From: a virus
Reading direction: 5' to 3' (one strand)
Length of the DNA stretch: 31,062 bases
Virus record (IMG/VR): IMGVR_UViG_3300005664_000037
Coordinates: 1 to 31,062 of that record
The translations under genes and the position numbers were made by a program. Positions 1 to 19,401 of the stretch are shown here, one piece after another (position 1 is the first letter of the stretch; each line of letters begins with the position of its first letter). The notes under the pieces were generated by a model that was given only the letters and a program-made list of their open reading frames with translations, ran no database searches and was not told the DNA's origin.

Positions 1-166
1 TTTTGCCGCCTTCAAGTGATAGAACTCTTAGCCAGCCAGGATAGTTGTTCTCGGTATCTTCGTAATAACCATCAGCATATTTAAGCGCTAAAACGTTGCG
101 TTCCCAATATGCTAGGTCTTGAGTTTCTTCTGATGACATATCTTTATGCCAAGTTTTTATTTTCAC
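1..166 (-). CDS. Conserved phage hypothetical protein, 5' part only (runs off left edge)
   Basis: A GTG start at 164-166 is preceded by a good ribosome binding site (GAGGTG, then AAAT). The frame stays open for 55 codons to the window edge, so the C-terminus is missing. The visible product is acidic and aromatic-rich: it opens MKIKTWHKDMSSEE and contains KYADGYYEDTENNYPGW followed by LEGGK. This pattern (HKDM near the start, YADG-YY-D..NNY.GW, then LEGG) is one I associate with small conserved phage proteins of unknown function. It is the last visible gene of the leftward early operon and follows a structured 245-nt gap. No function is claimed. Confidence 0.7.
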   Translation of the reverse strand, partial: MKIKTWHKDMSSEETQDLAYWERNVLALKYADGYYEDTENNYPGWLRVLSLEGGK

Positions 167-324
167 ATTTCACCTCGTTAAAAAAGTACTGCCAGGATCT
201 GGATCTGTCGGGCAGCTTCGACTAAGTACACATAGCCAGCTTGCGAAGAGTTTTGTATATCGGCTTTTCACTCTCATTCAGAAGCGTCCCGAAAGACCGC
301 CGACACTGATTACAAATTGTTAAA

Positions 325-403
325 GCAGGACGATGATAGGACATAGCATCAGCGGTCCTTTCACAGACAAACGTCGTCAGCAACGCCGCTATCATCATCC
401 CGC
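325..403 (-). other. Long intergenic RNA hairpin (element 4) in a 245-nt gene-free gap
   Basis: Read on the minus strand, GCGGGATGATGATAG (403-389) can pair with CTATCATCGTCCTGC (339-325): 15 pairs, two of them G-U, enclosing about 49 nt. An inner AGCGG/CCGCT pairing (390-386 with 355-351) could form in the loop. The stem starts 8 nt after the stop codon of the gene ending at 412. The rest of the gap (167-324) shows only short inverted repeats. A 58-codon reading frame crosses the hairpin (222-398) but has no clear ribosome binding site. A structured untranslated region is the simpler reading. Confidence 0.55.
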
Positions 404-411
404 AAGTTTAT

Positions 412-609
412 TTATTCTTCTCTGTCGAAATCTTCTTTAAGAACATTGGTAATTTTAATTTCGTAATTTTCACTGTGTTCAAAATTATCCATAATATAAT
501 CGAATAAAATTCTCGGTGTTTCGGGGTCTTTAGTATCAAACCAAAGATCTCCATTTCCATGTTCTCCCAAAATAGAAATTACCTCGACGTATCCTTTTTT
601 ATTTTCCAT
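412..609 (-). CDS. Small acidic hypothetical protein
   Basis: Encodes about 65 residues, rich in Asp and Glu (ending LKEDFDREE), with no membrane segment, cysteine motif or recognisable domain. The ATG at 609 is preferred over the one at 615 because AAGGA lies 6 nt upstream of it. It belongs to the string of small early genes downstream of the replication genes, all on the same strand, where phages usually keep host-takeover or counter-defence functions. The gap before it holds a long hairpin closing just before its ribosome binding site. I do not recognise the family. Confidence 0.6.
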   Translation of the reverse strand: MENKKGYVEVISILGEHGNGDLWFDTKDPETPRILFDYIMDNFEHSENYEIKITNVLKEDFDREE

Positions 610-625
610 ACTCATTCCTTAAATC

Positions 626-709
626 AGCGGCGCAAGTTTAAAACCTCAGCGGATACCATATGTAAACGCCGAAGATATATCCAAAAATCTAGTTCTGCCT
701 TACGCCGCT
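626..709 (-). other. Long intergenic RNA hairpin (element 1) bridging two early genes
   Basis: On the minus strand AGCGGCGTAAG (709-699) pairs with CTTGCGCCGCT (636-626): 11 pairs with one U-G, enclosing 62 nt. The stem begins 14 nt after the stop of the gene ending at 724 and closes about 8 nt before the AAGGA of the next gene. Folding would bring that stop codon close to the next ribosome binding site. Its outer stem resembles that of the element at 977-1052. Confidence 0.6.
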
Positions 710-723
710 TTAAATTATTTCTT

Positions 724-960
724 TTAAATTATGTTTGGTTTTAAGTACAAATCTTCAAGCTGTTCTAGCGCATCTAAAATTTGCCCTACAGCGGCTTTTG
801 AATACCCGGTTTTATCTTTCAACAAAATTAGAATCACATCTCTTTTTAAGCGAGACTGTTTAATTTGTTTCATGGCTTTAGATATATCAACTATAGCCTG
901 AGCCATAATTTGAACTGGTATCGGTTTTGTTGGTTGTGTTACTGTAATTTCTTTTTTCAT
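724..960 (-). CDS. Small hypothetical protein, possible winged-helix DNA binder
   Basis: Encodes 78 residues. The ATG at 960 has a clean GAGG ribosome binding site about 7 nt upstream. The C-terminal half (residues about 40-75, KRDVILILLKDKTGYSKAAV then GQILDALEQLEDL) looks helical and has the spacing of a helix-turn-helix, which suggests nucleic-acid binding; this is weak inference. It sits in the accessory part of the early leftward operon and is preceded and followed by long intergenic hairpins. No family is recognised. Confidence 0.6.
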   Translation of the reverse strand: MKKEITVTQPTKPIPVQIMAQAIVDISKAMKQIKQSRLKRDVILILLKDKTGYSKAAVGQILDALEQLEDLYLKPNII

Positions 961-976
961 TAAATCCTCTTTTATC

Positions 977-1052
977 AGCGACGCGGATTCATTTTCTCAC
1001 TACTCTGCACCATGCAGAAAGCGATTAGCTTAGCCGTTGTCCCCGCGCCGCT
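977..1052 (-). other. Long intergenic RNA hairpin (element 2) bridging two early genes
   Basis: On the minus strand AGCGGCGCGGG (1052-1042) pairs with TCCGCGTCGCT (987-977): 11 pairs, two of them G-U, enclosing 54 nt. The stem opens 5 nt after the TGA of the gene ending at 1058 and closes about 6 nt before the GAGG of the next gene. The wobble pairs point to the stem rather than the exact sequence being kept. The first seven bases of the 5' arm match those of the element at 626-709. Confidence 0.6.
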
Positions 1053-1057
1053 TTTGT

Positions 1058-1372
1058 TCATTTAATTAAATTTTTAATATGGCCTATGCTATCTTTAAGA
1101 ACTCGCAGATCCGCTATTTCTTTTTCAAGGCCAAAAATAATACCGAGCAATTCTTGTTCGCTAGACGTACTTTTATTAAACAAGTCGGCGACTTCCATTT
1201 TACGAGTGAGTTTTTTGACTGTTTTTGTCATATCAATAGGAATCTCGTACAATTCCGGGTGAATACTGCCGAAGGTTGGATAGTTGCGCTGGTAGTACGA
1301 CACAAATTTATCACTGACCAATTCTTTAAGCTGTTTCATTTGTTTTTCTGGTATCAAATTTACTTCACTCAT
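1058..1372 (-). CDS. Hypothetical protein with C-terminal coiled coil
   Basis: Encodes 104 residues. The ATG at 1372 lies 2 nt after the stop of the upstream gene and has AGAGGA in front of it, so the two are likely translated as a pair. The C-terminal 45 residues are heptad-like (EQELLGIIFGLEKEIADLRVL), predicting a coiled coil. No catalytic or metal-binding motif is seen. It is an accessory early gene and the family is unknown to me. Confidence 0.6.
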   Translation of the reverse strand: MSEVNLIPEKQMKQLKELVSDKFVSYYQRNYPTFGSIHPELYEIPIDMTKTVKKLTRKMEVADLFNKSTSSEQELLGIIFGLEKEIADLRVLKDSIGHIKNLIK

Positions 1373-1374
1373 TT

Positions 1375-1581
1375 CTATCCTCTATTGCCAACGGCCACGC
1401 TTGTTTCAACACCTACTAATTTAGGTTTACGTGACCGAAGGCGTTTAAATATTCTCAGAAGCACGTCACAGGGCCATAGGCAGGCCACAACACAAAAGCC
1501 AGTAAGCGCCATCAGCACAAGGCAAATAGCGAATCCGATTAGTTGTAGTGTTAGCCATGCGGCGTATGCGTATGAGTGCAT
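1375..1581 (-). CDS. Small membrane protein
   Basis: Encodes 68 residues. Residues about 5-40 are strongly hydrophobic, in two stretches (WLTLQLIGFAICLVLMAL, then FCVVACLWPCDVLL), followed by a basic tail FKRLRSRKPK. By the positive-inside rule this suggests a membrane hairpin, or one long segment, with a cytoplasmic C-terminus. There are several cysteines in the membrane part. GGAG lies about 11 nt upstream of the ATG. A small early membrane protein could act in superinfection exclusion or host takeover, but nothing in the sequence proves that. Confidence 0.6.
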   Translation of the reverse strand: MHSYAYAAWLTLQLIGFAICLVLMALTGFCVVACLWPCDVLLRIFKRLRSRKPKLVGVETSVAVGNRG

Positions 1582-1596
1582 CTAAAATTTTCTCCG

Positions 1597-2007
1597 TTAG
1601 ACTTTTACCGCTTTTGGCGATTTTATATTCTCGAGATCATTTAATTCGTCCATACTTGCGCGTATGTGCGATTGAGTGTCTTTGATCTTTTGTAATTTGA
1701 GATTACATTTCGCAAGGTCATCAGCGATTTGTTTTCTTATTCGATCCTTGCAAGCCTTCAAAGTTCCAAACAGATTTTCACGCGAACATCCTTTAGAAAA
1801 ATGAAACTCACGCTCGCATCCTTTTGCAGACCGAATCCTGAAATGCCTATGTGAATTGTCGACAGATATTACACGCCACGCATCTATCTTAACTTCACCT
1901 TCTTTATTGAAGTTATAGCCACTCGACCAATCGCCGAGATAGACAAGCGAATTCAAATTTATTTCCACCTCATCAACGGTCATCATTGGAACGTCTTTAA
2001 TACTCAT
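1597..2007 (-). CDS. Hypothetical protein, 136 residues
   Basis: The N-terminal 80 residues look beta-rich (NLNSLVYLGDWSSGYNF, then WRVISV and FRIRSAKGCEREFHF). The C-terminal 50 residues are charged and helical with heptads (IADDLAKCNLKLQKIKD). Three cysteines are spaced through the middle. AAAGGG precedes the ATG at 2007 and follows directly on the 3' arm of a 12-bp stem, so the ribosome binding site sits at the foot of an RNA hairpin. Family not recognised. It lies immediately downstream of the cluster that includes the Acb2-like gene. Confidence 0.6.
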   Translation of the reverse strand: MSIKDVPMMTVDEVEINLNSLVYLGDWSSGYNFNKEGEVKIDAWRVISVDNSHRHFRIRSAKGCEREFHFSKGCSRENLFGTLKACKDRIRKQIADDLAKCNLKLQKIKDTQSHIRASMDELNDLENIKSPKAVKV

Positions 2008-2025
2008 TTTCTTTCCCTTTGTTAG

Positions 2026-2081
2026 CCCCAGGCCATGTCTGCATATCCAAAAACGTTATTGTTTTGAATCATGACCTGGGG
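2026..2081 (-). other. Long intergenic RNA hairpin (element 3) bridging two early genes
   Basis: On the minus strand CCCCAGGTCATG (2081-2070) pairs with CATGGCCTGGGG (2037-2026): 12 pairs with one U-G, enclosing 32 nt. It opens 5 nt after the TAA of the gene ending at 2087 and closes 5 nt before the AAAGGG of the next gene. There is no U-run after the stem, so it is not a typical intrinsic terminator, and the genes on both sides are clearly co-oriented. Confidence 0.65.
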
Positions 2082-2086
2082 GTCTG

Positions 2087-2263
2087 TTATTTAGTTAGTT
2101 TCCAGCCGTCTTTCTTAGCGTTAATCGGCGCTGCGTATTCTTTTAACTCAACGCCAGATTTAGCGTTCTTAAGCTTGAATACTCGCTTTTGTTTCATCTT
2201 CGAGAATTCATAGTTACCCAGAAATTCTTTGCCTTTGTATTTTGATTTATGTGTCCAGTACAT
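2087..2263 (-). CDS. Small basic hypothetical protein
   Basis: About 58 residues, very lysine-rich (opens MYWTHKSKYKGKEF and ends NAKKDGWKLTK), with no domain I recognise. The ATG at 2263 is chosen over an in-frame GTG at 2269 because AGAGG lies 5 nt upstream of the ATG. It lies just downstream of the Acb2-like gene and is followed by hairpin element 3. Its basic charge would suit RNA or DNA contact, but that is only inference. Confidence 0.55.
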   Translation of the reverse strand: MYWTHKSKYKGKEFLGNYEFSKMKQKRVFKLKNAKSGVELKEYAAPINAKKDGWKLTK

Positions 2264-2271
2264 ATTCACCT

Positions 2272-2514
2272 CTACGAATTCGTTCGCTGTTCTTGCAATT
2301 GAGCAGAACCGCCACGGCTAATTTGTTGATCTCTAATTGCTTTGCCTACCCACATGTAAGCTTCTTCTAATTTATTAAAAACTAGAGACTGTGCGCGACC
2401 TGCTGGAAGCGAGTTAGCCACATGAATTTCAAGCTCCTTAAACATTGACTTGAAAGCCTCTTGATTTGTTTGCGCGTGATCATCGTATTTTACGTAATCA
2501 AAACGTCCTGACAT
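2272..2514 (-). CDS. Acb2/Tad1 hairpin-domain-like protein, candidate cyclic-nucleotide sponge
   Basis: Encodes 80 residues, nearly all helical. The motif GRAQSLVFNKLEEAYMWVGK followed by AIRDQQ (about residues 39-65) matches the pattern R..SLa.tKLEEA.MW...AI that I associate with the Acb2/Tad1 hairpin family of phage proteins. Known members bind and sequester the cyclic oligonucleotides made by CBASS, or the cADPR-type signals of Thoeris, and so block abortive defence. Seen here: the helix-hairpin pattern, the short length and a place in the accessory early operon. Inferred: a sponge function. The N-terminal Tyr/Lys ligand residues of characterised Acb2 cannot be aligned with certainty (FDYVKYDDHAQ is the candidate region), so the ligand, and even binding, is open. 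Confidence 0.55.
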   Translation of the reverse strand: MSGRFDYVKYDDHAQTNQEAFKSMFKELEIHVANSLPAGRAQSLVFNKLEEAYMWVGKAIRDQQISRGGSAQLQEQRTNS

Positions 2515-2543
2515 ATTATTCCCCTTGTTGTGCCTTTCGGCGG

Positions 2544-2792
2544 TTAAATTCTTTCTTTCTTAATCGTCGGCACTCTGTCCTTAACGATGTTTTGTTTATA
2601 TTTGTTTTGCATTTTTAGAATCATGTTTTTCACGCTCTCATAGTTCTGATCTCGGTGGCGTTTTTTCATCAGGCCAACGTAAATCAAGGCCTCAGTTATT
2701 TTCTTCACTTCATACTGATCGAACAGCGCATTGATCTTGATGTAGTGTGGAAAGTGCACGCGGATGTATTCTTCTTTGGATGTGCGGGTCAT
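2544..2792 (-). CDS. Small basic hypothetical protein
   Basis: About 82 residues, strongly basic at the C-terminus (KNMILKMQNKYKQNIVKDR, then PTIKKERI) and helical in the middle. The ATG at 2792 is preferred over an upstream start at 2855. It lies 1 nt after the TAA of the preceding gene with GGGA in front, whereas the longer form would overlap that gene by about 60 nt in another frame. The middle (ALFDQYEVKKITEALIYVG) could be a helical binding domain. Function unknown. Confidence 0.55.
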   Translation of the reverse strand: MTRTSKEEYIRVHFPHYIKINALFDQYEVKKITEALIYVGLMKKRHRDQNYESVKNMILKMQNKYKQNIVKDRVPTIKKERI

Positions 2793-2793
2793 G

Positions 2794-3075
2794 TTAATTC
2801 CCAAATGGCGGACATGCTTGTGCGAATCTATGAGCTCGTTCTTTTGCTTTATCACCGCACACTGGACACCATGGATCTTTTTTAGATAGAATCACGCAAG
2901 TTTCTTTTGCGCTGACTAACTCATTCTCAAGCTCATGTATTTTTAGCCGTTGAGTTTCGATTCTGTCGTTAGCTTCTTGCAGTGATTTACGAGTCGCCTT
3001 GAGCATTTCGTTTTCATCGTCGTTCTTAGTTTCAGTAAACATCGTGGTTCGATGTAGTCCGTCTAGTGATGTCAT
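2794..3075 (-). CDS. Coiled-coil protein with C-terminal zinc-ribbon-like CxxC
   Basis: Encodes 93 residues. Residues about 22-60 form a clear coiled coil (LKATRKSLQEANDRIETQRL and onward). Near the C-terminus there is a WCPVCGDKAKERAH stretch with a further Cys near the end, i.e. CxxC plus His/Cys ligands that could bind one zinc. The ATG overlaps the stop of the upstream gene (TAATG), so translation is probably coupled. The coil plus zinc knuckle could be a small adaptor or nucleic-acid binder. No family is recognised. Confidence 0.6.
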   Translation of the reverse strand: MTSLDGLHRTTMFTETKNDDENEMLKATRKSLQEANDRIETQRLKIHELENELVSAKETCVILSKKDPWCPVCGDKAKERAHRFAQACPPFGN

Positions 3076-3671
3076 TATTTCACTTCCGATCGATAGTATC
3101 GAATCGACTCTGTTATTATTTTCTTGTTCAGCTTGAATTCGCTTTCATCCCAAGTCGTAGTGCAGTCTTTGAGCTCAAATTTCTTTACTTCATCAAATGT
3201 GAACTTTCGACAACCCCATGACACTTGATTGTCTGCGATTGTGATGTGAAATTTCATACCGATGATATGCAGAGGGGTTTTCGAAGCGTCGCCGGACACC
3301 TGAGCGCCGCCGGACACCTGAGCGTCGCCGTACACCCGAGCGTTGCCGTACACCTGAGCGTTGCCGTACACCTGAGCGTTGCCGTACACCCGAGCGTCGC
3401 CGTACACCCGAGCGTCGCCGTACACCCGAGCGTTGCCGTACACCCGAGCGTTGCCGTACACCTGAGCGTTGCCGTACACCTGAGCGTTGCCGTACACCCA
3501 AGCGTCGCCGGACACGTCTAAGTGTTTTTCGCTTTCGATATAACCGCCGAGCTCACCTTCTCGTATCCCATAACGCTCAATTTTAGTTTTTGCTTTGATT
3601 CTAAAAACTTTCACGCCGAATACCGTGAGTTTAAAATCGGTTTGTATTAGTTCGTATTTTTCGTTTTTCAT
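3075..3671 (-). CDS. Hexapeptide-repeat protein (left-handed beta-helix type)
   Basis: Encodes 198 residues. Residues about 53-130 are 13 tandem six-residue units, most of the form VYGNAQ, VYGNAR or VYGDAR, with VSGDA variants at both ends. Hexads with a small or aliphatic residue at fixed positions build triangular left-handed beta-helices, as in bacterial acyltransferases and polymer-forming scaffold proteins. Here the repeat is not followed by a transferase active site but by about 65 residues with two cysteines. An ordered N-terminal cap (KIERYGIREGELGGYIESE) precedes it; phage and Bacteroidales hypotheticals with an EGELGGYIE cap are familiar to me, function unknown. It overlaps the DnaC-like gene by 4 nt (ATGA), with GGGGA ahead of its start. 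Confidence 0.7.
   Translation of the reverse strand: MKNEKYELIQTDFKLTVFGVKVFRIKAKTKIERYGIREGELGGYIESEKHLDVSGDAWVYGNAQVYGNAQVYGNARVYGNARVYGDARVYGDARVYGNAQVYGNAQVYGNARVYGDAQVSGGAQVSGDASKTPLHIIGMKFHITIADNQVSWGCRKFTFDEVKKFELKDCTTTWDESEFKLNKKIITESIRYYRSEVK
3282..3515 (-). repeat. 13 tandem 18-bp units inside the hexapeptide-repeat gene
   Basis: The 234 bp hold thirteen 18-bp units, with a consensus on the coding strand of GTGTACGGCAACGCTCAG. The inner units differ only at Asn/Asp and Gln/Arg codon positions, and runs of two or more neighbouring units are identical. Such near-identity in DNA suggests recent expansion by slippage or recombination. Since 18 is a multiple of three, gain or loss of units changes helix length without breaking the frame. 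Confidence 0.9.
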
Positions 3672-4429
3672 TTGGTCCCCTTTAATTGTTTCAATCTTTC
3701 TGAGTGAATATCCATGCGGCGGTCTTTGCCTTTAATTTCAACCATGACAGAGCATGCAATGATTCGAGAAAACACGCGTTCCCCGAATGTCTGTCTCATT
3801 TGCTCAAGCTTGCAGTTTGTAGAGAAGAAAGTTGGTAGATTGTTGTTTACTCGGTAGTCGAGAATTGAAATTAGTTTTTCAACGGCGTAGTCACTGAATT
3901 TGTGAGCCCCGAAATCGTCGATGAATAAATAATTATATTTTTGGATTTTCTCGATCTTTTTTAAAACTGATTCGTCCGCGCTGTATGAGTCTTTAAGCTG
4001 CTCAAGTAGCATCGATGCAGTATTCCAGTAGATGCTACCGTTTACAGCATAACCGTCGCTGGCTAGAGTGGAAGCAACGTGATTCAATATAGCCGTTAGC
4101 GCGTAAGTCTTTCCCGTACCAACCGGACCACAAATGCAGAATCCGAAATCCGAATACACACCCCAATTACTAAGCATTGCATAGATTTCTTCATTCTCAG
4201 ACTTAAGACTTTCAATACTGGCAGCGTTTGCATTGCACGGAAGGTGTTTATTTTTTTCAAAAAAATAGTCGTAGCTGTCCCAGCATCGATCAATTAACTT
4301 TTCACGCTCTGCATCTTTTTTCTGCTTTTCGCTCTCAATTTTTGCGGCCTCAATTTGCTCGGGCGTCATTTTTTGCCAAAGTTTATTAAGAAATTCCGAA
4401 GCCTCGGTGTTTGTTATTGTTTCACTCAT
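3668..4429 (-). CDS. DnaC-like replicative helicase loader (AAA+ ATPase)
   Basis: Encodes 253 residues, the usual size for DnaC/IstB-type loaders. The Walker A motif GPVGTGKT is at residues 101-108, Walker B LFIDDFG at 168-174, a sensor-like FFSTN at 201-205, and GERVFSRI (216-223) carries arginine-finger candidates. The N-terminal 90 residues are helical and charged, as expected of the helicase-binding part. Known role: loads the host DnaB-type hexameric helicase at the phage origin, in the cytoplasm. It overlaps the O-like initiator gene upstream by 4 nt (ATGA) and the next gene downstream by 4 nt, so the three are translated together. The pairing of initiator and loader mirrors lambda O/P-type modules. 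Confidence 0.85.
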   Translation of the reverse strand: MSETITNTEASEFLNKLWQKMTPEQIEAAKIESEKQKKDAEREKLIDRCWDSYDYFFEKNKHLPCNANAASIESLKSENEEIYAMLSNWGVYSDFGFCICGPVGTGKTYALTAILNHVASTLASDGYAVNGSIYWNTASMLLEQLKDSYSADESVLKKIEKIQKYNYLFIDDFGAHKFSDYAVEKLISILDYRVNNNLPTFFSTNCKLEQMRQTFGERVFSRIIACSVMVEIKGKDRRMDIHSERLKQLKGTK

Positions 4430-5229
4430 AGACCAAGCGCCTTTCGAGTTTCCTCGTCGGTCTGCTCAGACTGGTAGCCTTCGTTTAGTTTAGCTTGTGA
4501 AATGATTTTTCTATTGTCGTATGTGCCCTCGATAGCTTTTAGAGCTGTGTCGGGTTTTATCAAGAATTCAAAATCAGCTTTCCATCCCCGATCATTTTGT
4601 CCGTTACAAAATTGGCTATTAGCGATTCTTTTTATTATGTCCACCCATTCACCCTCGGAGTGTTCCGAAAATCGCGTGGCGGCCTTTTTGTTGCGATTAA
4701 GATTTGATTTAAATACTTTAGGCAACTGTCCAGAATGTTCATTCCAAAGCACTGCAAGCCGAGGTAACTCGACAAGAGTATTCTTTCTTTCTTTAATTCT
4801 TTTATTCTTTAATTCTTCATTATGTGGGACTGAATTGGGATACATTTGGGACGCAGTTGGGATGCAATTGGGATCTATTTGGGAATCCTCTGCGTCTTGT
4901 CCTTGATATCTCTCGTAATTATTGATTTTTAAAAATACGCCGCCGAAAGATCTTTCAACAAAAACTGTCTTTCTCAACGCTAAATAATTCAAATGTCGTA
5001 AAACGGTTTTTCGGTCACATTCGCCGAGTTCGGATAGCTCTAAAAGTGAGGTGATTATCTCGCCGCGTTCGAGCGTTCTTGGTTGACCATTCCACTCGAC
5101 AGTTGATGGTTGAATATTGGCCATGGCGATGATTGCACAAAACAAACCGCCACGAGTGTAATTAGAATTGATGTCCCCAAGGGCAGCTTTTCGATGAAGC
5201 TTAACCCAGCCGTTTAAATGCCTAGCCAC
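4426..5229 (-). CDS. Phage replication initiator / replisome organiser (O-like)
   Basis: About 267 residues from the GTG at 5229, chosen because GAGGT lies 6 nt upstream; a TTG 12 nt earlier lacks one. The N-terminal part (about residues 1-110) has the winged-helix pattern of phage replication proteins: HLNGWVKLHRKAAL, then ELGECDRKTVLRHLNYLAL as the recognition region, then FLKINNYERYQ. A low-complexity linker follows, and the C-terminal WVDIIKRIANSQFCNG with WKADFEFLIKPDTALKAIEG matches the conserved C-terminal domain of many phage replisome organisers. It would bind the phage origin and recruit the loader encoded next. It is the first gene after attP, which matters for its control (see findings). 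Confidence 0.8.
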   Translation of the reverse strand: MARHLNGWVKLHRKAALGDINSNYTRGGLFCAIIAMANIQPSTVEWNGQPRTLERGEIITSLLELSELGECDRKTVLRHLNYLALRKTVFVERSFGGVFLKINNYERYQGQDAEDSQIDPNCIPTASQMYPNSVPHNEELKNKRIKERKNTLVELPRLAVLWNEHSGQLPKVFKSNLNRNKKAATRFSEHSEGEWVDIIKRIANSQFCNGQNDRGWKADFEFLIKPDTALKAIEGTYDNRKIISQAKLNEGYQSEQTDEETRKALGL

Positions 5230-5242
5230 GGAACACCTCAAG

Positions 5243-5265
5243 TGGTGTCACAGTGGTGTCACTAA
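5243..5265. repeat. attP arm repeat, left copy
   Basis: A 23-bp sequence made of TGGTGTCAC, AG, TGGTGTCAC, TAA. An exact copy in the same orientation lies at 5475-5497 on the other side of the tRNA-like core. Each holds two 9-mers spaced 11 bp apart, about one helical turn. Paired arm sites flanking a core are what the N-terminal domain of a tyrosine integrase binds. The assignment follows from position and repetition. Confidence 0.7.
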
Positions 5266-5350
5266 CCCCGTATTTAGCACTATTTTCTAGACTTTCGTCT
5301 TTTTGAGTATTTCTAAGATTAACTTTGTAAGTAGTTGATTTTGTTAAAGA

Positions 5351-5410
5351 TGGTGCCCCGGGCCAGAATCGAACTGGCACGCCCGTTTGACCGAAGCCCA
5401 GGATTTTAAG
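5351..5410 (-). other. attP core: 3' part of a tRNA-Leu(UAA) gene
   Basis: On the minus strand the 60 bp read as the 3' part of a tRNA-Leu. They begin in the anticodon loop (CTTAAAA, anticodon UAA), then a long class II variable arm, a T arm GCCAG-TTCGATT-CTGGC, the acceptor strand CCGGGGC, a discriminator A and CCA. The sequence 5' of the anticodon loop does not pair with the 3' anticodon stem and has no D arm, so this is a fragment, not a gene. Phage integrases commonly target tRNA 3' ends and carry such a fragment so that the host tRNA is restored on insertion. The integrase gene ends 84 bp away and arm repeats flank both sides. Confidence 0.85.
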
Positions 5411-5474
5411 TGTTGATACCGATTTACTTATGCATTTAATATCATTAATGAATTCCGTTTTCATTTCTTCCCCA

Positions 5475-6869: not shown

Positions 6870-6946
6870 ACGTTCCCCAAAAAATTAATCATAAAGGACG
6901 AAAATACAAAAAGTATGCAAATCGTGTCGAAGTGATGTTGTTTCAT
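6866..6946 (-). CDS. 26-codon leader ORF coupled to the excisionase gene
   Basis: Reads MKQHHFDTICILFVFSSFMI and then NFLGNV. The ATG at 6946 has AAGGA 6 nt upstream, and the TGA at 6866-6868 overlaps the excisionase ATG as ATGA. The product would be hydrophobic after residue 8, like a small membrane peptide. The coding case rests on the ribosome binding site and the exact stop/start overlap, since length gives no statistical support. Its role may be only to deliver ribosomes to the excisionase start. Confidence 0.4.
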   Translation of the reverse strand: MKQHHFDTICILFVFSSFMINFLGNV

Positions 6947-6949
6947 TTC

Positions 6950-10235: not shown

Positions 10236-10775
10236 ATGAATCGCTTAATCGCTATTGTAATAGTCAGCGTTTTTGTTTTGTCGTGTAATAAGGCTTCGGA
10301 TAGCCCGGTAACAGCCGCGCCCACTGAATCGCCTACAATTAATAAAGAGAGCGTGAATCCGCTATTGGGCACTTGGTACGATTCTTCGCTTGGAAACGGC
10401 GACGGCAATAAATCTGCTATGTACTATAAATTTAATAGTGATTTTACTTTCGAAGAAAAAAGAATGGGAACCAAGGCAACGCCGATGGGTCCAAACGGTT
10501 GGCTAATGTACGGAGGAATCTATAAAGGTAAGTATGAAATCGTCGATGATATTTTCACACTGAAATACCAATTTGCAAAATCGAATTGTTTAAAGGACGA
10601 TTTAAAATTGCGATTTAGAATTTCGTCCGATAAAAAATGGCTTGAAATCCAGTCTATTGATCCTTTTTATGACAATCCCTCGACTGTGAATCCGTGGGGC
10701 GAGCACTTTAAAGTGGAAGTCTTGCCGGATATTTTAAAAGAAGCTTATATTAAATATGATGGGTGCGCACTTTAA
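10236..10775 (+). CDS. Lipocalin-like lipoprotein, candidate lysogenic-conversion moron
   Basis: 179 residues from the ATG at 10236, which has AGAGG 6 nt upstream; an earlier in-frame ATG (10209) lacks one. MNRLIAIVIVSVFVLSCNK is a type II signal peptide with lipobox VLSC and Cys17 as the lipidation site. After a Ser/Thr/Pro linker, NPLLGTWYDSS and the repeating strands (YYKFNSDFTFEEK, GKYEIVDDIFTLKY, KWLEIQSI) resemble a small lipocalin-like beta-barrel opening at the G-x-W motif. The product should sit in the periplasm or on the membrane. It lies directly downstream of the repressor, on the strand active in lysogens, where lipoproteins that exclude superinfecting phages are often found. The exclusion role is inference. 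Confidence 0.7.
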   Translation: MNRLIAIVIVSVFVLSCNKASDSPVTAAPTESPTINKESVNPLLGTWYDSSLGNGDGNKSAMYYKFNSDFTFEEKRMGTKATPMGPNGWLMYGGIYKGKYEIVDDIFTLKYQFAKSNCLKDDLKLRFRISSDKKWLEIQSIDPFYDNPSTVNPWGEHFKVEVLPDILKEAYIKYDGCAL

Positions 10776-14673: not shown

Positions 14674-14747
14674 TGGGGTGACGTGTGAGAACCGAACTCA
14701 CGTGACCAGGATCACAACCTGATGAACTACCACTGTTCTAACGCCAC
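14674..14747 (-). tRNA. tRNA-His (GTG), unusual 5' end and T loop
   Basis: 74 nt folding as a full cloverleaf: acceptor GTGGCGT/ACGTCAC, D stem GAAC/GTTC, anticodon stem TCAGG/CCTGG with loop TTGTGAT, T stem GTGAG/CTCAC, discriminator C and encoded CCA. The anticodon GTG gives histidine. Two oddities: the base before G1 is T, so the usual extra G-1 of tRNA-His is not encoded, and the T loop TTCGGTT has G where A58 is nearly universal. It lies 2 nt after tRNA-Gln and probably shares its transcript. Confidence 0.88.
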
Positions 14748-14749
14748 AT

Positions 14750-14823
14750 TGGAAGGGGATCTAGGATTTGAACCTAGAACGCGAGAGTCAAAGTCCCGCA
14801 TGTTACCATTACACTAATCCCCA
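14750..14823 (-). tRNA. tRNA-Gln (TTG)
   Basis: 74 nt including encoded CCA. Acceptor TGGGGAT/ATCCCCT has an unpaired first position, which is typical of glutamine tRNAs (weak 1-72 pair). D stem GTGT/ACAT, anticodon stem CGGGA/TCTCG with loop CTTTGAC, T arm CTAGG-TTCAAAT-CCTAG. The anticodon TTG reads CAA and CAG. It is the first gene of the minus-strand island. Confidence 0.9.
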
Positions 14824-19378: not shown

Positions 19379-19401
19379 GGGTCTCGTTAACAGCGAGACC
19401 C
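19379..19401 (+). other. Perfect hairpin after the coat gene
   Basis: GGGTCTCG (19379-19386) and CGAGACCC (19394-19401) enclose a 7-nt loop TTAACAG. It begins 16 nt after the coat stop. The following bases (TACACAAAAACTTT) are not a T-run, so it is more likely an mRNA stabiliser, processing site or partial terminator than a strong terminator. Confidence 0.65.

Follow-up and report, generated by a model that had tools for sequence, protein, structure and literature searches.

Four hairpins in the gaps between small early genes are probably structured parts of the early polycistronic mRNA of a P22-like virus. We infer that each is an intercistronic or 3'-end mRNA element of the cistron upstream of it, and our tentative preference is for a putative processing or stability role attached to that upstream gene. 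The window, meaning the whole stretch of DNA analysed, is a virus record of 31,062 bases with P22-like coat (PF11651), integrase, RecT and YqaJ genes. Its left-end genes all lie on the minus strand, so the elements were read on that (mRNA) strand. The left end resembles an accessory or anti-defence region: by its domain match, the product of 2272–2514 is a putative anti-CBASS/Thoeris (cyclic-nucleotide) sponge. The elements and their neighbouring genes, from the open reading frame (ORF) list unless a match is given, are as follows.

292–360, minus strand: second stem near H4, 16 bp (360–345/307–292), with its 5' arm in the H4 loop; not in the earlier sequence-only reading
325–403, minus strand: H4, 15-bp stem (403–389/339–325), 8 nt past the stop of 412–615, in the gap 171–411; likewise new
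412–615, minus strand: small early ORF between H1 and H4; no PHROG match, and no Pfam match above the cut-off
626–709, minus strand: H1, 11-bp basal stem (709–699/636–626), 62-nt loop, in which two inner hairpins are predicted and 7 nt stay unpaired ahead of the 3' arm
724–960, minus strand: small early ORF preceding H1; weakly similar to a regulator PHROG (E 0.018)
977–1052, minus strand: H2, 11-bp basal stem (1052–1042/987–977), 54-nt loop; inner hairpin with a UGG triloop closed by GCA/UGC
1058–1372, minus strand: small early ORF preceding H2
1597–2007, minus strand: small early ORF following H3
2026–2081, minus strand: H3, 12-bp basal stem (2081–2070/2037–2026), 32-nt loop, in which a single inner hairpin is predicted and 7 nt stay unpaired ahead of the 3' arm
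2087–2269, minus strand: 60-aa ORF preceding H3
2272–2514, minus strand: Acb2/Tad1 hairpin-domain protein (PF24729, E 1.2e-7)

H1 to H3 lie between one gene's stop codon and the next gene's start. The sequence-only reading had described three gap stems of 11–12 bp, and all were found where it put them, on the minus strand. They open 14, 5 and 5 nt past the stop (H1 to H3), matching the 5–14 nt it gave, and close just before the next ribosome binding site, their 3' ends about 5–6 nt from an SD-like sequence. Its remarks that U-runs are lacking and that the first two stems share AGCGGCG also held: none follows the H1–H3 stems in the sequence, and this heptamer begins both H1 and H2. H4 is stronger than these three stems (15 bp; 0 of 1,000 shuffles) and has no ribosome binding site behind it. 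The stem 292–307/345–360 was reached in 2 of 1,000 shuffles with H4 masked; the two stems cross and are compatible with a pseudoknot.

Strand-specific signals identify the stems as RNA rather than DNA elements. On the mRNA strand, the best-stem score was reached in 4, 1, 0 and 0 of 1,000 dinucleotide shuffles (H1 to H4), against 51, 430, 52 and 528 per 1,000 on the opposite strand. Fold z-scores were −3.68, −3.84, −4.05 and −2.36 on the mRNA strand (whole gaps for H1 to H3, the stretch 270–411 for H4) and −1.94, −2.44, −1.90 and −1.03 on the other. When G-U and A-C pairs were allowed equally, the best stems of H1 to H4 and of a related element, L020, held 11 G-U pairs versus 2 A-C pairs, a modest bias, as shuffles favour G-U too (570:351). 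Taken together, these scores and the G-U bias mean that the stems act as RNA, if they are active at all.

Similar hairpins close behind stop codons in related loci suggest that those of the window are probably real parts of the phage mRNA. Two such elements were chosen post hoc from large scans: a 16-bp stem in L020, between 4764–5021 and the ORF at 5108 (0 of 1,000 shuffles; z −5.06), and a 16-bp stem at 10336–10411 of L178, 5 nt past the stop of a Tad2-like gene (0 of 500 shuffles; z −4.70). L020 has the nearest RecT and exonuclease found in viral contigs, 74% and 64% identical to the window's. L178 is part of a record, G013, whose TerL is 70% identical to that of the window, and it encodes a relative of the window gene 4426–5241 (51% over 88 aa). 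Its Tad2-like anti-defence gene (L178:10085–10330; PF11195, E 3.1e-18) lies directly before the hairpin, no ribosome binding site lies behind, and the next gene is 197 nt further on. L178 was picked from a long list for its place, which makes it support, not proof.

Relatives were gathered by MCP, RecT, TerL and integrase, and their fetched loci were searched for hairpins. In a relaxed-limit scan of ten of them (G002, G012, G013, G014, G026, G027, G028, G030, G032 and L020), sense counts were about equal to control overall; G002 gave one candidate (12 bp, 19-nt loop, 24 nt past a 42-aa ORF). A 19-bp stem in L002 was rejected as an intergenic element, as it sits inside a coding frame. Single-protein scans of viral contigs found no relatives of 724–960, 3668–4429 or 4426–5241, and neither the phage collection nor 12 records held one of 1597–2007. 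Among the matches listed (20 of 25 records), named phages resembled the DNA of 100–5400 nowhere but in the repeat gene near 3280–3560. This gene (3075–3671, minus strand) encodes a repetitive protein with YGNAQV/YGDARV-like repeats, and many unrelated phages have genes similar to the DNA of these repeats. The viral contigs, phage collection and records searched contained no homologous gap or close relative for covariation.

The factor common to all elements is the upstream stop codon, and we therefore prefer to see in them 3'-end or processing elements that belong to the cistron before them. Position is tied to that stop throughout, and two of the six elements (H4 and L178) are not followed by a ribosome binding site. 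After the last ribosome leaves the stop codon, the strong basal stem would fold and could then block 3'-to-5' decay; it may also offer a cut site to a double-strand-specific nuclease of the RNase III type. The 3' end of each small accessory gene would thus be protected separately, and the ribosome binding site of the following gene would stay free. In predicted folds, the region from SD to start has a mean unpaired probability of 0.62, 0.67 and 0.88 behind H1, H2 and H3. Several points count against such an upstream element: the SD-to-start region of L020 is mostly paired (0.31), the inner structures are weak when taken by themselves (shuffle p 0.046, 0.084, 0.116 and 0.01 for H1, H2, H3 and L020), the shape is unlike T7 sites, and the L020 and L178 elements were chosen post hoc. 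Should the hairpins prove to be processing or stability signals, they would show a temperate phage setting the fate of each accessory gene separately within a single long early message.

The T7 early region offers the closest comparison for such a role and also marks a difference. Its intercistronic RNase III sites, like the window's elements, are hairpins in early-gene gaps with an interrupted helix and no U-run. In minimum-free-energy folds of H1, H2, H3, L020 and L178, about 6–10 unpaired nt on the 3' side separate the inner hairpin from the basal stem, loosely recalling those interrupted helices; the basal stem encloses two predicted hairpins in H1, H2 and L178 and one in H3 and L020. The four T7 gaps that gave a stem, however, show a strong apical stem with a 3–5 nt loop, whereas the window and its relatives have a strong basal stem and a loop of 27–62 nt. 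The elements thus lack the small-looped apical stem of a T7-type RNase III site. Of the T7 control gaps, R0.5 as cut yielded no stem.

Other known RNA classes were also compared with the elements. Intrinsic terminators were rejected, the loops being 32–62 nt rather than short and the stems lacking a following U-run. Integron attC sites carry paired core sites, RYYYAAC and GTTRRRY, at their ends; read by eye, the ends of H1 to H4 hold no such pair, and this class was likewise set aside. No Rfam family reaches its gathering score for the elements. The S6-S18-Chlorobi leader (RF03134) resembles the L178 element in having a basal stem that encloses hairpins, and that element covers the model with a score of 19.8 bits (E 0.3). 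The assignment was rejected, since the score is far below the gathering score of 47.4 and the match was lost in a shorter search; RF03134 gave no match for the window elements.

Possibly, though at a low probability, the elements form a specific and undescribed phage RNA family carried by accessory genes. Its members would have a stop-proximal basal stem of 11–16 bp around one or two hairpins, UGG-capped in some, at the 3' ends of small accessory or anti-defence genes in P22-like temperate phages. They would bind a phage or host protein, or act as RNA effectors themselves after processing. Acb2-like and Tad2-like genes are among the neighbours, and parts of the elements are shared: H2 and L178 have the inner hairpin tip GCATGGTGC in common, flanked by pairs that differ (p 0.01 in 400 shuffles), and TTTTTGGATAT is common to H1 and H3 (0 of 400 shuffles). 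An N3-UGG-N3 palindrome occurs in three of the six elements (H1, H2 and L178), a number reached with any loop in 2 of 1,000 shuffles. This motif evidence is post hoc and small, however. The UGG triloop has a predicted probability of 0.66 in H2 and L178 but 0.0 in H1, and it is absent from H3, H4 and L020, leaving two different motifs and none common to all. A search for a single motif in H1, H2, H3 and L020 gave mostly chance-level results, except for a 10-mer driven by H1 and H3. Among stop-proximal stems at large, the palindrome was present in 9 of 626 on the sense strand, three of them H1, H2 and L178, versus 6 of 579 in the control. The shared tips and the palindrome are leads; if a family does travel with anti-defence genes, it would help to mark them and would add a new RNA for study.

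The sequence-only reading had proposed that each stem folds its spacer away so that the terminating ribosome restarts at the next gene, and this bridging now seems unlikely. Two parts of the idea stood, the RNA structure on the coding strand and the collapse in spacing: stop-to-start distances of 108, 97 and 79 nt (H1 to H3) and 86 nt (L020) become 24, 21, 23 and 27 nt if folded. The mechanism itself fared worse. H1, H2, H3 and L020 lie between a stop and a downstream ribosome binding site, but H4 and L178 do not, having no such site at the stem. A terminating ribosome covers stems that begin 5 nt past the stop, and such a stem therefore cannot be folded while the ribosome sits there; the two would clash sterically. 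According to a review (PMC12548453), coupling occurs mostly below about 30–40 nt, a range that the folded spacings of 21–27 nt reach and the unfolded 79–108 nt do not, and one study cited there reports coupling at larger spacings too. A library screen cited in the same review (PMC12548453) correlates structure right after the stop with weaker coupling, which argues against a bridge. The structure-linked couplings that the review (PMC12548453) describes, such as f1 VII-IX and rpmI-rplT, resemble the window in placing intercistronic RNA structure near a ribosome binding site, but there the site is hidden by structure, whereas in the window elements the SD lies outside the stem.

Insulation of untranslated spacers, in which structure would keep Rho or single-strand nucleases off naked gaps of 80–110 nt, is comparably improbable. 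The hairpins do fill about 69–78% of the H1–H3 and L020 gaps. Against this, an 80-nt gap in the same operon (6870–6949) has no stem (913 of 1,000 shuffles reach its score), so stems are not in every long gap, and the other fetched phages show no excess of hairpins behind their stops. A scan for a stem 1–20 nt past a stop followed by SD and start returned 3 of 207 tested stops in the window and 1 of 76 in L020. In the other fetched loci it returned 19 of 28,753 stops versus 24 for a complement control, and such stems are thus not generally typical of these phages. When no SD was required, sense and control counts were close among 29,036 stops: 221 and 207 at a score of at least 26, and 8 and 3 at a score of at least 36, in a scan that lists the H4 stem twice (two ORFs with nearby stops). 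The scans used all stop codons after a gene caller had missed H2 and H3. In these two scans and that for the palindrome, stretches of identical sequence entered the count a single time, and neither the T7 locus nor the window's own copy was included; overlapping locus copies skipped by hand numbered 13, 12, 23 and 25 across scans (23 in the stem-plus-SD scan, 25 in the other two).

Chance inverted repeats are a very remote explanation: background stems of similar size do exist, as those 221 sense and 207 control stems attest, but the other loci predict about 0.14 stem-plus-SD cases in 207 stops against the three observed, to which H4 and L020 are added. A mobile or duplicated hairpin inserted after stops, an alternative raised by the sequence-only reading, is similarly implausible: H1 and H2 share AAAGCGGCG and H1 and H4 share TAAACTTGCG, but flanking direct repeats (target-site duplications) are at chance (total score reached in 27.6% of 1,000 shuffles), the element bodies are dissimilar, blastn of H2 and L178 in phages gave only chance-level matches, and G-U pairs are retained on the coding strand.

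Several further features of the window and its relatives were observed. A tRNA 3'-end-like sequence at 5350–5411 adjoins the integrase gene and matches L175 (95% over 61 bp), L020 (84%) and L201 (75%); it is a probable attP, and the overlying ORF 5222–5464 is unlikely to be a gene. In a gap between late genes, tRNA genes for His and Gln are present at 14674–14823 (minus strand). A relative of the coat gene in L018 (8241–9449, minus strand) has one stop codon within the tblastn span, and directly after the window's own coat gene is a 10-bp hairpin with a 3-nt loop (19379–19401, plus strand).
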